Of a stretch of DNA of 64,000 nt, positions 2,260 through 43,186 are shown piece by piece. Made by a program: the position numbers and the translations under genes. The notes beneath the pieces were generated by a model that ran no database searches, was not told the origin of the DNA, and worked only from the letters and a program-made list of their open reading frames with translations. Position 1 is the first letter of the stretch, and the number at the start of each line of letters is the position of its first letter. This stretch comes from Lachnospiraceae bacterium 28-4 (GTDB lineage Bacteria > Bacillota > Clostridia > Lachnospirales > Lachnospiraceae), in contig KE159598.1 of NCBI GenBank assembly GCA_000403275.2, forward strand, positions 832,356-896,355. Reading direction: 5' to 3'.

Positions 2260-4446
2260 ATGAGTTCAGATGAAGAATACTTAGATGATTTTATTAGTTC
2301 TCTTATGAAAGAAGAGTCAGGAGAGGGTCTTGCGCCTTCGGATGAGGAGAAAGAAGAATCCGGTTCAGAAGAAGGAATGGAGCCGGAAGATTTAGATTTT
2401 GCAATAGAAGATTTAGCACCGGAAGAATTTGAGGCCGGTGATTTTGCGTTGGAAGATTTTGAGGGAGAGGGACCTGAGTTAGAAAGCGGTCTGGAAGATT
2501 CTTCCATAGATGATATGATGGACGGATTGCTGGAGGATATGCCGGAGGAAGCGGCGCTGGAAGATATACTGGAGGAACCGGCTTTGGAGGATATACCGGA
2601 GGAACCGGCTTTGGAGGATATACCGGAGGAACTGGCTTTAGAGGATATGCCAGAGGAATTAGCTTTGGAGGATATGCCGGAGGAATTAGCTTTGGAAGAT
2701 ATACCGGAGGAACTGGCTTTGGAAGATATACCGGAGGAACTGGCTTTAGAAGATATGCCGGCAGAAGAGGCTGATTTGGAAGATTTTAGCTTGTCTGATT
2801 TTCAAATGGATGAAATGGAAAACGAGGATTTTGATGATGAAGAAGAAAGCCTGATTTCACCGGATGAGGTTGATGCGATGTTTGCAGCAGCAGATGCGGC
2901 GGCAGATATGGGAGAGGATCTCACAGAGGAAGATGCCTTATTCGATGCAGAAATGCAGACGGATGAAATCTTTGACTTTTTAGATGATATGCCGACGGAA
3001 GAAGAGGACAGCGGAGAATTCGGGGATCCGGCTGTAGGCGGCGTGCAGGAAACGCCGACGGAAGAAGAGCAGGAAGAGAAGAAGGAAAAGAAAAAGAAGG
3101 AGAAAAAAGCGAAAAAAGAAAAAAAATCGTTATTTGGCAAAAAGAAGAAGTCTGGGGAAGGAGATGCGGAAGACGCAGGAGAAGGCGATTCCGGAAGCGA
3201 TAGTCAGAATGCGGAGGATGGCGCGGAGGGAGAAAAGGAAGAGAAGAGCCAGGGGCTTTTTAGTAAAATCATGGCCTTTTTGACCGAAGCAGACGACGAG
3301 GACGGGGAAGAAGGAAGGGCGGATGGATTGGAGCCTTCCGATGAAAATAAAAATATCCTGAAAGAACTGGATGACGAGGATAAAAATAAAAAGAAGAAAA
3401 AGGTAAAAGCGAAAGGCGACGAAGAAGGAAAAGAAAAGAAAGAGAAAAAGAAGAAGGAAAAAAAGGAGAAAAAGAAAAAAGAGAAACCCGCGGCAGCCGA
3501 TGCTGAAGGTTCGGAGACCGTTAAAAAAGGAAAAAGAGTTTCTATTAAGAGTATTTTGGTAATAGCAGCGTTTTGCTTGACGATAACGGCAATGATTATT
3601 GTGACATGCAGTATTATTCCGGACTTTTTTGATAAGAGAAAGGCAAGAGAAGCCTTTTATCAGGCAGATTATATAAAATCCTATGAGCTGATGTATGGAA
3701 AAAAATTGGATGAGAGCGATGCCATTATATATAATAAGGCAAAAACGATTCTCGAAATGAAGAGGAAATTGGACTCCTACCATAATTATCTGGGCATGGG
3801 AAAAGAAATACAGGCGTTGGATGCTCTCATGTCAGGGGTGGAACATTATCCCGAAATATTGGCTAAAGCCGAAGAATATCGGGTGACTCAGGAAGTCAAT
3901 GCGATTTATGAATCAATATTAAGTATTTTGAATGATAAATATACTTTGGCGGAGCCGGTTGCGCAGACGATCATAGCATATGATGATGTGACATATACGA
4001 AAAGGTTGGAATCTATCGTTTATAATACTCCGTTCATTATGCCGGAGGAAAAGACAGAAGAAGAGGAAGCGGTTCCAACAGAGGATATTCTTCCAGAAGA
4101 ACAGGAAATGATGGAGGAAGAGCAACTTCCGGATGCAATGGAGCAGGATCTTCCCCAGGATACGTTAGCGGATGAAATGACAACGCCGGAAGAGGAGATG
4201 CCGCAGGGAGAGGATGTGTCTCAGCAGGAACCGGAAGGGGATGGAACAGAACCGTCCGTAGAAGAACCTTCTGCAGCAGAAGCTCCTTACGTAAATGATT
4301 CTGTGGCGGATTCGCCCGTTCAGGGAGGAAATACCTCTCAGGGAGAGGATGTGTCCACATGGACAGGTAACAGCGGTTTCGGCAGTCAGGGAGAGCAGAT
4401 TCAGGGGTTACAGCAGCCTATTAATATAGAAATACACGGAAATTGA
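2260..4446 (+). CDS. Acidic/lysine-rich single-pass membrane protein with tandem repeats, function unknown
   Basis: 728 aa, not recognised. Residues 1-95 are acidic. Residues about 96-175 are nine-residue repeats of the type EELALEDMP. More acidic sequence follows, then lysine/glutamate stretches about residues 275-300 and 370-415. One hydrophobic helix spans about 427-450. After it come about 120 residues of helical, TPR-like sequence (REAFYQADYIKSYELMYGKK onward), then a Pro/Glu/Gln-rich acidic tail. Topology suggests a long charged cytoplasmic N-terminus and an extracytoplasmic C-terminus. The start has a GTGAGGGTG ribosome site. It ends 22 bases before hisH and may be cotranscribed with it, which does not reveal a function. 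Confidence 0.75.
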   Translation: MSSDEEYLDDFISSLMKEESGEGLAPSDEEKEESGSEEGMEPEDLDFAIEDLAPEEFEAGDFALEDFEGEGPELESGLEDSSIDDMMDGLLEDMPEEAALEDILEEPALEDIPEEPALEDIPEELALEDMPEELALEDMPEELALEDIPEELALEDIPEELALEDMPAEEADLEDFSLSDFQMDEMENEDFDDEEESLISPDEVDAMFAAADAAADMGEDLTEEDALFDAEMQTDEIFDFLDDMPTEEEDSGEFGDPAVGGVQETPTEEEQEEKKEKKKKEKKAKKEKKSLFGKKKKSGEGDAEDAGEGDSGSDSQNAEDGAEGEKEEKSQGLFSKIMAFLTEADDEDGEEGRADGLEPSDENKNILKELDDEDKNKKKKKVKAKGDEEGKEKKEKKKKEKKEKKKKEKPAAADAEGSETVKKGKRVSIKSILVIAAFCLTITAMIIVTCSIIPDFFDKRKAREAFYQADYIKSYELMYGKKLDESDAIIYNKAKTILEMKRKLDSYHNYLGMGKEIQALDALMSGVEHYPEILAKAEEYRVTQEVNAIYESILSILNDKYTLAEPVAQTIIAYDDVTYTKRLESIVYNTPFIMPEEKTEEEEAVPTEDILPEEQEMMEEEQLPDAMEQDLPQDTLADEMTTPEEEMPQGEDVSQQEPEGDGTEPSVEEPSAAEAPYVNDSVADSPVQGGNTSQGEDVSTWTGNSGFGSQGEQIQGLQQPINIEIHGN
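2545..2787 (+). repeat. 27-bp in-frame tandem repeat (about 8-9 units)
   Basis: Consecutive 27-base units encode variants of EE(L/P/A)ALED(I/M)(P/L). Units differ mainly by Ile/Met and Pro/Leu exchanges. The array lies in the acidic N-terminal part of the gene at 2260-4446 and is a likely site of copy-number change by slippage. Confidence 0.9.
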
Positions 4447-31596: not shown

Positions 31597-31630
31597 ATGC
31601 ACATGGGTGCGATGCGCAAGAGTGCGCAAG

Positions 31631-31985
31631 GAAATCCATTTTAAAAAGCGCCTTGGCAGCCGGAAGCAAACGAGAGGGGCGGGAACAGCAGGAAAAAGGG
31701 GCTGGCCGGGGGCGGAGTTTTTTGCTGTTGCGTACAATCAGCTATTTCACTTATGAAATGGTCAATAACCAGAGCGAAACCGCCAGGACGGCGGTTTCAG
31801 GGAGCGCAGGACAGGATGTCCGTTGCTCCCGGCTCGTCCGGTTGAACACCATATACCCATTTCATTAGTGAAATCTGATTGGAAGCCCCAGCAAAAAACT
31901 CCGCCCCCGGCCAGCCCCTTTTTCCTGCTGTTCCCGCCCCTCTCGTTTGCTTCCGGCTGCCAAGGCGCTTTTTAAAATGGATTTC
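31631..31985. repeat. Large palindromic element, copy 1 (355 bp; 97-bp perfect inverted repeats)
   Basis: Arms 31631-31727 and 31889-31985 are exact reverse complements over all 97 bases. The 161-base core contains further pairing: CAATCAG with CTGATTG; about 18 bp of ATTTCACTTATGAAATGG with its near complement; a 9-bp stem GAAACCGCC/GGCGGTTTC; and GGGAGC/GCTCCC enclosing GGACA/TGTCC. Copy 2 is at 41759-42100. No target-site duplication is visible. The open frames across it exist only because the arms mirror each other. It could be a MITE-like element or the gene for a large structured RNA. Confidence 0.92.
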
Positions 31986-32026
31986 CGTCTACCATCCCCC
32001 CTCAAAACTGCTGTTCGCCAAAAACC

Positions 32027-40190: not shown

Positions 40191-41438
40191 TTAAAGAATC
40201 ACCAGCTGCCGGGAATATTCGTTGATAAAAGATGCCTGGAATTTGTGGCATGCCACAGAGTCATAAATATGAGCGGAGCGGATGTCGTCTTCCAGCATGG
40301 AGAGTCCTGTTTCATCCAGGAGGGGGGAGGCATCCGCGAGTTTGGAGATCAGGGGAAGGGATGCGTTAGCCTTTAAAATGCCGAACAAGGGGGCTGCTTC
40401 CCGGCGGAAGCCAAGAATACGGGCATAAAAAACATAATCTTTTTCGGTATATTTCTCTGTTTTTTCCGATGTTATGCCAAGAAGAATGTGAGTCAGGCAG
40501 CGGCTGATTCGGGAATGGGTGATTTCCCTGGATTTTAGCAGGCTGCAGAACTGCTCAAAATTTTCGTAATCATACAGGTGTTTCTTTATTTTACCGGATA
40601 GGGAAGTGGTTACGTCCTGGTAATGGGCAAAGCCGTTTTCTTTTTCCAACAGCAGACGGTATTTCAGCATCAGGGAGAAATCGCCGCTGTTTACGGGGAA
40701 GCTCTTTCCGTAAGATGCCTGTAGCAGTTGGAACACGGATGGCGGAACGTGCCGCCGGATACCGGACAGGCCGGAACAGGAACCGATGCTGTCCCGGATG
40801 GCGGAAGCGGAACTAAAGGACATAGAGTCATTCGAGCCATTCAGGGCGCTTTCATGATAGCCGCTTCCTTGTCTTTGAAGAGTGAGAGGAATGATCGGGC
40901 TGTTTCTTTTGAAAAGAGCCTTGATATATTCGATGCCAAGGATATTGTTCGGAGATGTGAGATCGATATCATCCGGGCGGCCGGGAAGGAAGTTTTGCAG
41001 TGCTATACTTCTTGCTTTTGGAAAAGAATGGCCCTTTTTTAATTCTTTTTGCAGTGCGGAGCGGTATTCTTCCGGTTCTTTCAGAAGAACGGACGCGATG
41101 CGGGAGAGCGGTTTTAAGCTGCCGCATTCACTTCCAAAGCAAAGAGAATCCACGGAGCCAAGCCTATCCAGAAGGGATACGGCGCCCATGGCGAAAAACT
41201 CCGCACTTCCTGCGGCATAGACGGCAGGAAGCTCCAGAACAAGATCCGCACCGTTTTGCAAGGCCATTTCGGTGCGGGCATATTTGTGGATAAGGGCCGG
41301 GACTCCGCGCTGCATAAAGTCGCCGCTGATTACGGCAATGATATAGTCCGCGCCGGATATGGCGCGGGTTTGTTCCAGATGGTATCGATGGCCGTTGTGG
41401 AATGGGTTGTATTCTGCGATGACTCCGGTGATTTTCAT
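40191..41438 (-). CDS. tmcAL: tRNA(Met) cytidine acetate ligase
   Basis: 415 aa on the - strand. The start at 41438 is chosen because AGAAAGGAAAC lies upstream and homologues begin KITGVIAEYNPFHNGH, which carries the nucleotidyltransferase HxGH motif; an upstream ATG at 41552 would lie inside the palindrome. Other conserved parts are AVISGDFMQRG, SEFFAMGAV and SPNNILGIEY. It activates acetate to make N4-acetylcytidine at position 34 of elongator tRNA-Met. It is convergent with the ABC exporter and divergent from pta. Confidence 0.92.
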   Translation of the reverse strand: MKITGVIAEYNPFHNGHRYHLEQTRAISGADYIIAVISGDFMQRGVPALIHKYARTEMALQNGADLVLELPAVYAAGSAEFFAMGAVSLLDRLGSVDSLCFGSECGSLKPLSRIASVLLKEPEEYRSALQKELKKGHSFPKARSIALQNFLPGRPDDIDLTSPNNILGIEYIKALFKRNSPIIPLTLQRQGSGYHESALNGSNDSMSFSSASAIRDSIGSCSGLSGIRRHVPPSVFQLLQASYGKSFPVNSGDFSLMLKYRLLLEKENGFAHYQDVTTSLSGKIKKHLYDYENFEQFCSLLKSREITHSRISRCLTHILLGITSEKTEKYTEKDYVFYARILGFRREAAPLFGILKANASLPLISKLADASPLLDETGLSMLEDDIRSAHIYDSVACHKFQASFINEYSRQLVIL

Positions 41439-41501
41439 AAGTTGGTTTTGTTTCCTTTCTGATGATAGGGGAATGGGGAATTGTAAAAGGGTAAGCTGTG
41501 G

Positions 41502-41659
41502 GAATATTCTGACAATATCTTCTGTGAAAATCTTTTTGTGCCATGGAACCAAGACCGCAAAATCATGGAGGCGCTATCGCCGACATGATTTCGCTTTACC
41601 GGGCTTGGTGGAATGTCCGGCACAGTTAGATTTTCACAGAAGATATTGTCAGAATATTC
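41502..41659. repeat. 158-bp palindromic element with 32-bp perfect terminal inverted repeats
   Basis: 41502-41533 and 41628-41659 are perfect reverse complements over 32 bases. The 94-base interior pairs further: TGTGCC/GGCACA, ACCAAG/CTTGGT, AAATCATG/CATGATTT and an apical GGCG/CGCC. It is unrelated in sequence to the 342-355 bp elements. It lies 63 bases upstream of tmcAL and could be its leader structure, a MITE, or an RNA gene. The remaining 41660-41758 is A+T-rich with no recognisable gene. Confidence 0.88.
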
Positions 41660-41758
41660 GGCAAGGTTATTCCTTTTGCAATTACCTATTTTATGACTCT
41701 TTTTAGGGTAACATGATTAGGGATATTGTTCAAATATTATTTATAGTTTTCTGATACA

Positions 41759-42100
41759 GAAATCCATTTTAAAAAGCGCCTTGGCGGCTGGAAACGAAAG
41801 GGGGCTGCGGCGGCAGGAAAAGGGACTGGCCGGGGGCCGGTTTTTTGCTGTTGCGTACAATCAGCTATTTCACTTATGAAATGATCAATAGACAGAGCGA
41901 AACCGCCAGGATGGCGGTTTTAGGGAGCGTAGGCATGGATGCCGTTGCTCCCGGCTCGTCCGGAACCACAATATTGCCCATTTCATTAGTGAAATCTGAT
42001 TGGAAGCTCCAGCAAAAACCGGCCCCCGGCCAGTTCCTTTTCCTGCCGCCGCAGCCCCCTTTCGTTTCCAGCCGCCAAGGCGCTTTTTAAAATGGATTTC
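41759..42100. repeat. Large palindromic element, copy 2 (342 bp)
   Basis: Arms 41759-41850 and 42010-42100 are near-perfect complements (one base of length difference in an A run, one G-U-type difference). The outer ~26 bases and the ~160-base core closely match copy 1 at 31631-31985. The middle of the arms differs strongly between copies yet stays complementary within each copy. In the apical stem, GGACA/TGTCC of copy 1 is replaced by GGCAT/ATGCC here. It is in the same orientation as copy 1, between tmcAL and the pta promoter. Confidence 0.92.
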
Positions 42101-42122: not shown

Positions 42123-42151
42123 TTGTGCGAAGTACATAAATCTTGTATAAT
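42123..42151 (+). promoter_or_regulatory. Promoter of pta
   Basis: TTGTGC (42123-42128) and TATAAT (42146-42151), 17-base spacer, 33 bases before the start codon and 23 bases after palindromic element copy 2. Confidence 0.75.
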
Positions 42152-42184
42152 TTTGGTTATAAAACCGAAAGGAGTTTGGGGGAC

Positions 42185-43186
42185 ATGGCTTATATTGATA
42201 TTATTAAGGAAAAAGCGAGAAGCGACAGAAAAACGATTGTTCTGCCGGAGACAACGGATAAAAGAACGCTGATTGCCGCTTCCCATATTATTCAGGACGG
42301 CATTGCCAATATTATAATGATAGGAAATGAAGAGAAGATCATGGACGGTGCCGGGTGGCTGGAAGTGGATCTGGATGGGGCGACGATCATTGATCCTTCG
42401 CAGACGGAAAAACTGGACGGATATGTGGAACTTTTGTACGAAACGAGGAAATCCAAAGGAATGACACCGGAAAAGGCAAGGGATGTTCTTTTAAAAGATT
42501 TTCTTACGTTCGGAGTAATGATGGTAAAGGCAAATGATGCGGACGGAATGGTGGCGGGAGCATGCCATGCCACGGCAGAGACGCTTCGGCCCGCATTGCA
42601 GATATTGAAGACAGCCCCCGGCGTGAAACTGGTTTCCGGCTTTTTCCTTATGGATGTGCCTGATTGCAAATTCGGGGATAAGGGAACCTTCCTTTTTGCG
42701 GATTGCGGGTTAAATCAGGATCCGACCCCGGAAGAGTTGGCGGCGATTGCGGATACGAGCGCGAAAAGTTTTAAGCAGCTGGTAGGCTCCAAACCAATTA
42801 TTGCCATGCTGTCCCATTCCACAAAGGGAAGCGCGAAACATCCCCTTGTAGATAAAGTGGTGGAGGCGACGCGGATTGCCCATGAGCAGTATCCTCATCT
42901 GCTGCTGGACGGAGAATTGCAGACCGACGCCGCCCTGGTTCCACAGGTAGCCAAATCCAAAGCGCCCGGCAGCGAAGTGGCAGGAAAAGCAAACGTATTG
43001 ATTTTCCCGAATCTGGACTGCGGAAATATCGGCTATAAGCTGGTGCAGAGGCTGGCAAAAGCGGAAGCCTACGGCCCCATGCTGCAGGGGATTTCGAAAC
43101 CGGTAAACGATCTGTCCCGCGGGTGTTCCTGGGAGGATATCGTAGGCGTAGTTGCCCTGACTGCGGTACAGGCGCAGCTGGCATAG
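42185..43186 (+). CDS. pta: Phosphate acetyltransferase
   Basis: 333 aa. Start at 42185 after AAAGGAG. Family segments include IVLPETTDKRTL, GMTPEKARDVL, MVAGACHATAETLRPALQI, DCGLNQDPTPEELAAIA and FPNLDCGNIGYKLVQRL. It interconverts acetyl-CoA and acetyl phosphate, normally with acetate kinase for ATP production. ackA is not adjacent here, unlike in many relatives; a DUF177-rpmF unit with its own promoter follows. Confidence 0.97.
   Translation: MAYIDIIKEKARSDRKTIVLPETTDKRTLIAASHIIQDGIANIIMIGNEEKIMDGAGWLEVDLDGATIIDPSQTEKLDGYVELLYETRKSKGMTPEKARDVLLKDFLTFGVMMVKANDADGMVAGACHATAETLRPALQILKTAPGVKLVSGFFLMDVPDCKFGDKGTFLFADCGLNQDPTPEELAAIADTSAKSFKQLVGSKPIIAMLSHSTKGSAKHPLVDKVVEATRIAHEQYPHLLLDGELQTDAALVPQVAKSKAPGSEVAGKANVLIFPNLDCGNIGYKLVQRLAKAEAYGPMLQGISKPVNDLSRGCSWEDIVGVVALTAVQAQLA

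Follow-up and report, generated by a model that had tools for sequence, protein, structure and literature searches.

How can the two arms of a long inverted repeat diverge from one copy to the next and yet stay complementary to each other? The question is raised by an element that occurs twice in a 64,000-nucleotide stretch of contig KE159598.1 from Lachnospiraceae bacterium 28-4, a gut-type bacterium (the window, meaning the whole stretch of DNA that was analyzed). The window's own genome comprises 4.28 Mb on 7 contigs and is referred to here as G000, with C1, C2, and so on in locus names standing for contigs. The features of the two copies are as follows.

41759 to 42100, + strand: copy 2 of the whole element, 342 bp, intergenic, between divergent open reading frames (ORFs) at 40191 to 41552 (- strand) and 42143 to 43186 (+ strand)
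41759 to 41845, + strand: left arm of copy 2, purine-rich, pairing with the right arm
42014 to 42100, + strand: right arm of copy 2, 99% complementary to the left arm over 87 nt
41759 to 41785, + strand: left outer end of copy 2, of the terminal inverted repeat type, equal to that of copy 1
42074 to 42100, + strand: right outer end of copy 2, equal to that of copy 1
41851 to 42009, + strand: TwoAYGGAY RNA core of copy 2 (RF01731), matching the full model (1 to 168) at 83.8 bits against a gathering score of 43
41900 to 41921, + strand: first core hairpin of copy 2 (P2), with a GGA loop
41923 to 41952, + strand: second core hairpin of copy 2 (P3), with the apical GGCATGGATGCC at 41932 to 41943
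31630 to 31986, + strand: copy 1 of the element, with arms at 31630 to 31741 and 31875 to 31986
31728 to 31888, + strand: TwoAYGGAY core of copy 1, 83.7 bits

An inverted-repeat search of the window returned 87-nt arms around a 168-nt spacer for copy 2 (99% complementary) and arms of 112 nt each for copy 1 (96% complementary). The folded strand of copy 2 has a predicted energy of -269.8 kcal/mol, whereas 100 shuffled versions average -118.2 (z = -24.8). A sequence-only reading of the locus had held that the arms of copy 2 diverged from those of copy 1 but remained self-complementary, each change on one arm being mirrored on the other, and this was confirmed when the two arms of each copy were aligned together, four sequences in all: in 15 columns both arms carried a substitution, and a further 7 gap columns were common to both, 1 of them in the base of the stem and 1 at the outer tip. 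Another 10 columns had changed on a single arm and 4 were complex, and 9/10 of the former and 4/4 of the latter fell inside the first 16 columns, which form the asymmetric, imperfectly aligned base of the stem; beyond column 16, only 1 column carried a single-arm change. The outer part of about 26 bases was indeed kept, as the two copies are identical over the outermost 27 aligned columns before the tip, and the repeat blocks that span the core are 85 to 90% identical. The same reading had pointed to an apical stem in which GGACA/TGTCC becomes GGCAT/ATGCC. That change is real but is not private to this pair: the apical stem reads GGACAGGATGTCC in copy 1 and GGCATGGATGCC in copy 2, two common alleles found in 20/55 and 19/55 copies with a type-A core (see below), and these differ by one base pair and one loop base in addition to the substitution. 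The window also holds an unrelated palindromic repeat beside copy 2 (41485 to 41676; arms of 58 nt, 81% complementary), which has relatives in genomes G002, G003, G004, and G014, and a nine-copy repeat with 27-nt spacing at 2479 to 2802, within an ORF at 2260 to 4446.

The two copies belong to a large family. BLASTN identified 41 places in the window's genome after second-strand and split rows of the same place were merged, and the union with matches to RF01731 came to 78 copies; arms were found in 75, and the 3 copies lacking recognizable arms were left out of all arm counts. Two further loci, neither among the 78, resemble a full copy (L245) and a truncated copy (L230). Among 61 genomes searched, 14 carried the family: G000, 11 congeneric genomes, and a single representative of each of two further genera within the organism's family. 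The closest relative found, G004, has a pta gene 89% identical to that of G000.

Several properties of the family point to mobility. Conserved ends of the CACGGAAATCMATTTT type were recognized on both sides, at 3 mismatches or fewer, in 64 of the 130 copies from G000 and G004, although strong family-wide conservation of the outer end extends only over about its first 16 nt. In these 64 copies, which define the target-duplication count, direct repeats of at least 7 bp flanked 14 elements (versus about 0.3 expected from shuffled pairs) and those of at least 8 bp (8 or 9 bp) flanked 11 (versus about 0.1); in five copies the duplication was exactly 9 bp and abutted both ends. Most copies, including both in the window, had no detectable target duplication. 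The corresponding G004 site is empty at the locus of copy 2 and at that of another copy, L233. Neither a transposase gene in or around the element nor a partner transposase with matching ends was found in G000, and a pattern search there (1 mismatch or fewer) yielded no facing pairs of CACGGAAATCMATTTT-type ends 0.5 to 3 kb apart. Bacterial MITEs are short, multicopy elements with inverted ends and a fixed-length target duplication that lack a transposase gene. The element shares these traits, to the extent that a transposase gene was not found, and is nonautonomous and MITE-like, with TwoAYGGAY structured RNA as its payload and the arms lying between the conserved ends and the core; it differs from bacterial MITEs in that its inner arms, hypervariable from copy to copy, change in concert within each one, and in that no partner transposase was found. 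By rough longest-ORF calls, 30/77 copies in G000 lie between divergent genes and 6/77 between convergent ones. Head-to-head pairs of elements recur at about 330 to 465 bp from start to start (in G000, C3:653045/653430, C1:1195130/1195564, C2:131313/131680, C1:1031191/1031554, and C3:333495/333827; also in G023, on C47 and C33). L231 appears to be a half-element with one end, one arm, and part of the core, the pattern that partial deletion of the palindrome would leave; L232, L239, L244, and L246 also appear to be half-elements as judged by motif positions, L231 being the only one read through.

The core has its own history in the literature. TwoAYGGAY was described as a probable RNA that is probably not cis-regulatory (Weinberg et al. 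2010, PMC2864571), and a text search showed the terms “inverted repeat” and “mobile” to be absent from the main text of that paper. It was proposed in the RMfam paper to be a CsrA-binding RNA, a prediction presented there as awaiting validation (PMC4333381). In G000, 62 matches to RF01731 were found, each above the cutoff. The core of copy 2 resembles the described RNA in covering the full model at the score given above, with both GGA-loop hairpins, whereas the Rfam match stops about 91 nt short of each end of the element. Cores in G000 fell into 55 of type A and 22 of type B, with 1 copy in neither, and the consensus structures of both types contain both hairpins. At least one loop with the strict pattern CA(N)GGAYG was present in 54/55 type-A and 21/22 type-B copies; two such loops were present in 29/55 and only 2/22, respectively, the second loop of type B departing from the pattern. 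As in the CsrA-binding small RNAs discussed in PMC4333381, the core loops keep GGA motifs, and CsrA is encoded in G000; the presence of CsrA in 11/14 genomes with TwoAYGGAY versus 31/47 others is a weak contrast. The conserved core is probably made as RNA. The arms also gave Rfam matches to MIR1858 and the RRE family, all below gathering scores and treated as chance matches of long stems.

The arms present a different picture from the core. Over the inner 60 nt, the two arms of a copy had a median identity of 0.95 (69 G000 copies), whereas inner-arm identity between copies was 0.617 for type A (0.583 when shuffled) and 0.633 for type B (0.567 when shuffled); cores were identical between copies at 0.80 (type A) and 0.89 (type B). 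Apart from this complementarity, the arms would seem to be unconstrained, their sequence almost free to change. Read toward the core, they are purine-rich (G 0.45, A 0.23, C 0.19, T 0.13; flanks, G 0.20, A 0.29, C 0.22, T 0.30). Against dinucleotide shuffles, the arms of 72 G000 copies were enriched in GGA (310 versus 237 expected, z = 7.4) and ANGGA (87 versus 51 expected, z = 5.5) and depleted in GGG (z = -8.0).

Mismatch between arms rose with distance from the core, from 2.6 to 3.7% in the inner 40 nt to 10.6% at 70 to 90 nt and 14% at 90 to 110 nt (73 G000 copies). The same outward trend was seen in G004; it was flat in G003 and absent in G002. Independently drifting arms, which the sequence-only reading had named as evidence against its view, thus do occur, mainly in the distal parts of arms in G000. 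Two copies, C4:153680 and C4:6746, combine diverged outer ends with a perfect inner arm. Arms with zero mismatches were found in 6 of the 39 G000 copies used here (of 78), one of which has a target duplication; since a duplication was missing in 29/33 of the other copies as well as in 5/6 of these, its absence cannot date the copies with perfect arms. For relatives, copies cut by contig ends were dropped from the arm counts (46/52 kept in G004 and 17/20 in G001), 30 of 43 matches were used from G015, G019, and G023, and certain partial or below-cutoff matches were never used (G004 C81 and C91; G002 C132; G001 C55 and C122).

Matched changes on two arms may be fixed by selection on pairing in RNA or arise by copying of DNA, and the two leave different traces: selection on pairing lets G.U but not A.C persist on the RNA strand, whereas DNA copying treats both alike. 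The check for wobble intermediates across copies, which the sequence-only reading had proposed, gave different answers for arms and core. The arms of 75 G000 copies had no G.U excess (163 G.U versus 178 A.C, p = 0.45), nor did those of eight genomes pooled (361 versus 403, p = 0.14), although single genomes departed in both directions (G.U to A.C, 48/25 in G001, 5/18 in G003, and 10/29 in G015). The core hairpins did have an excess (33 versus 8, p = 0.0001; Fisher p = 6e-5 versus the arms), in counts whose cells are not independent, as copies share ancestry; a single type-A hairpin contributed 25 of the 33 G.U cells, and without it the count was 8 versus 5. In the basal stem region A.C exceeded G.U (43 versus 18, p = 0.002), likely because of fixed asymmetric positions there, as the mostly Watson-Crick columns of the core stem gave 25 G.U versus 16 A.C. 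Support for RNA-pairing selection, as far as these patterns of substitution can indicate it, is thus confined to two small core hairpins and does not extend to the arms.

Copies at the same site in different genomes allowed the arms to be followed between species. Likely orthologues were chosen by flank comparison among five genomes together with core ranking. In ten such comparisons, the arms differed by substitution on both sides in 147 columns and on one side in 42, with 81 more being complex; a trio of copies from G001, G002, and G003 is counted three times in these figures, and without one of its comparisons the ratio of both-arm to one-arm columns was 139 versus 39. The four strictest comparisons, with both flanks matched and cores reciprocally best, gave 52 versus 15 (G000 C1:921605; G000 C3:349882; G001 C173 with G002 C122; and G002 C28 with G003 C101). 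Five of the ten were matched on one flank only (G000 C3:179914, C2:1325088, and C1:1031554 with G004, and two trio comparisons with G003), and three were not reciprocally best in the core (C2:1325088, C1:1031554, and G002 C81 with G003 C208). Gap columns, inflated in these comparisons by unequal arm extents, were excluded as evidence. Runs of 5 or 6 adjacent bases had changed on both arms between sister species.

In two of the strictest pairs the core itself was inverted: G000 C1:921605 versus G004 C102:17660 and G000 C3:349882 versus G004 C48:77664. In both, the flanks were in place, 88 to 93% identical, and in the opposite orientation to the core, and the cores were reciprocal best matches among 78 copies in G000 and 52 in G004. 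A G002 copy matched on one flank to the second of these sites (C22:84681) shares the orientation of G004, which tentatively places the C3:349882 inversion on the G000 side. Among 13 same-site pairs of G000 and G004, 11 were not closest to each other in the core and 5 had different core types; such discordant pairs may reflect repeated insertion at one site or replacement. At one insertion site, G000 C2:659551 and G004 C2:14911 have different core types, and their flanks align up to the ends of the element.

A further copy extends the symmetry beyond the element.

G000 C1:1396342-1396722: L233, with its core at about 1942 to 2122 of the locus

Here, perfect symmetry continues into the host DNA for about 15 bp beyond the left end. 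The left side agrees with the empty site in G004, so the left flank is ancestral and the right flank a mirrored copy. The core of L233 is odd in its own right, with no Rfam match up to E = 1. At its 69 unpaired symmetric positions, all 69 pairs were allowed and 0 disallowed under the rule that each letter is the alphabetically first of the two that the core and its reverse complement have at that position, whereas the same test on 78 ordinary copies gave a median of 28 disallowed pairs. Most likely, the sequenced population contained both core orientations, the record originally carried ambiguity codes for them, and these were later resolved to single letters; alternatively, a sequencing or assembly artefact at the perfect palindrome may be responsible. 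Adenine-specific hypermutation of the type seen with diversity-generating retroelements was considered for this core and rejected, the pattern being the positionwise alphabetical minimum of two orientations. Another G000 copy, at C1:1511898-1512064, has flanks mirrored for about 12 to 15 bp past its ends.

The sequence-only reading had left open whether selection on pairing or arm-to-arm conversion underlies the matched changes. DNA-level copying is favored for the arms because they lack a G.U excess, because multibase changes occur on both arms in likely orthologues, and because cores were inverted and host flank was mirrored, whereas pairing selection is supported only in the core hairpins. 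Judged from these sequence comparisons, we consider it quite likely that the arms stay matched mainly via arm-to-arm copying of DNA, by template switching or recombination, rather than through a need of the RNA; that template switching is the main route we hold with somewhat lower confidence. A mutation or small indel would start on one arm. Occasionally, DNA synthesis would fold back or switch strands at the inner arm, and one arm would be copied onto the other, proceeding outward from the core over varying lengths. Hence the arms would change together, with complementarity best beside the core and decaying outward, and the same copying events could invert the core or pass the end of the element and mirror host DNA. 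Concerted multibase change, the outward gradient, inversion of the spacer, and extension into the flank together fit quasipalindrome template switching, the gradient and flank extension being marks that we derive here from the fold-back model. Against copying of this kind, the arms of G001 alone have 48 G.U versus 25 A.C, and the gradient is missing in G002 and flat in G003.

Of the alternatives, the one that survives best differs in the agent rather than in the outcome: RecA-dependent homologous recombination, or hairpin mismatch repair, would homogenize the arms instead of a polymerase switching templates. With arms of about 90 bp and more, the repeats are long enough, and recombination between inverted repeats is established to invert the spacer as well, such that RecA acting on the two arms could account for inversion and conversion alike. 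Neither process, however, would carry the complementarity over into unrelated flanking host DNA, as is seen in L233 (one copy), and hairpin mismatch repair gives conversion only and no core inversion. The outward gradient suits fold-back copying, though recombination tracts could also produce one. We regard this alternative as unlikely, if worth keeping in view, and infer that the arms are matched by template switching during replication and not by recombination of the RecA type.

That selection on a DNA hairpin or cruciform, needed for example by a transposase, keeps the arms paired appears quite improbable. A DNA hairpin under selection would also yield equal G.U and A.C, and the absence of a wobble bias that it predicts is what was seen; but pairing is poorest in the distal parts, the very ones that a transposase should depend on most, and the mirrored flank is left unexplained. 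Very improbable, too, is selection on RNA pairing, in which a transcript would need the long stem and compensatory changes would be fixed via G.U intermediates. The core is a curated RNA family with a G.U excess in its hairpins, the predicted fold of copy 2 is very strong, and the arms of the relative G001 show the G.U majority given above; yet arms overall have no such excess, sister species differ on both arms by runs of 5 or 6 neighboring bases, and pairing selection does not predict core inversion or flank mirroring. Least probable of all is that the arms are rebuilt at each transposition, by an intermediate that copies one arm into the other, and decay afterwards: perfect-arm copies do exist (6/39, one with a target duplication), but likely orthologues carry different arms that are self-complementary in each species, which contradicts this scheme unless the insertions were independent, the old-looking C4:153680 and C4:6746 have diverged ends with a perfect inner arm, and decay alone would yield no distance gradient.

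Arm copying by DNA synthesis has one further possible consequence. The element might be a self-maintaining invertible RNA switch, in which copying keeps the repeats long and perfect and the core keeps flipping; we find this doubtful, and if it were true, flipping would change toward which neighbor the RNA is made. The alphabetical-minimum core of L233 (69/69) is what would be expected if the sequenced population held both core orientations and the codes were later resolved.

TwoAYGGAY RNA, MITEs, and template switching are each already known. Template switching is reported to be able to create and maintain RNA hairpins, with multibase compensatory change, loop inversion, and perfect stems arising without selection (Monttinen and Löytynoja 2022, PMC8794818); the stems in that report are short ones in established RNA genes, with patterns of 59 bp or less, and its own evidence for stem maintenance is termed circumstantial. 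The concerted change on both arms and the spacer inversion seen here resemble the quasipalindrome template switching of that study, whereas the present arms are of about 90 nt and more, in dozens of copies and in likely orthologous pairs. In yeast, inverted repeats are reported to undergo both arm homogenization and spacer inversion (Abraham and Hazkani-Covo 2021, PMC8604942), as in the present system, but those are short repeats inside coding genes and not a bacterial mobile element with a structured-RNA spacer. The arm copying proposed here would be a known mechanism, acting on a large scale on a mobile structured-RNA element. Searches of open-license PMC papers turned up no description that we recognized of such a combination, in which arms change in concert across dozens of copies, orthologous cores are inverted, and flanks are mirrored.

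Compensatory base change is the usual proof of a functional RNA stem, and matched changes alone do not prove RNA structure. The copies of this element form a large natural set of long, often perfect stems whose concerted changes bear no mark of RNA selection overall, beside short hairpins in the same molecule that do bear one; as such, they offer a test case for telling covariation made by mutation from covariation made by selection, and they bear on the question of how much template switching maintains stems. TwoAYGGAY, an orphan RNA, gains a mobile-element context, and careful reading of its outer-stem covariation is advised.
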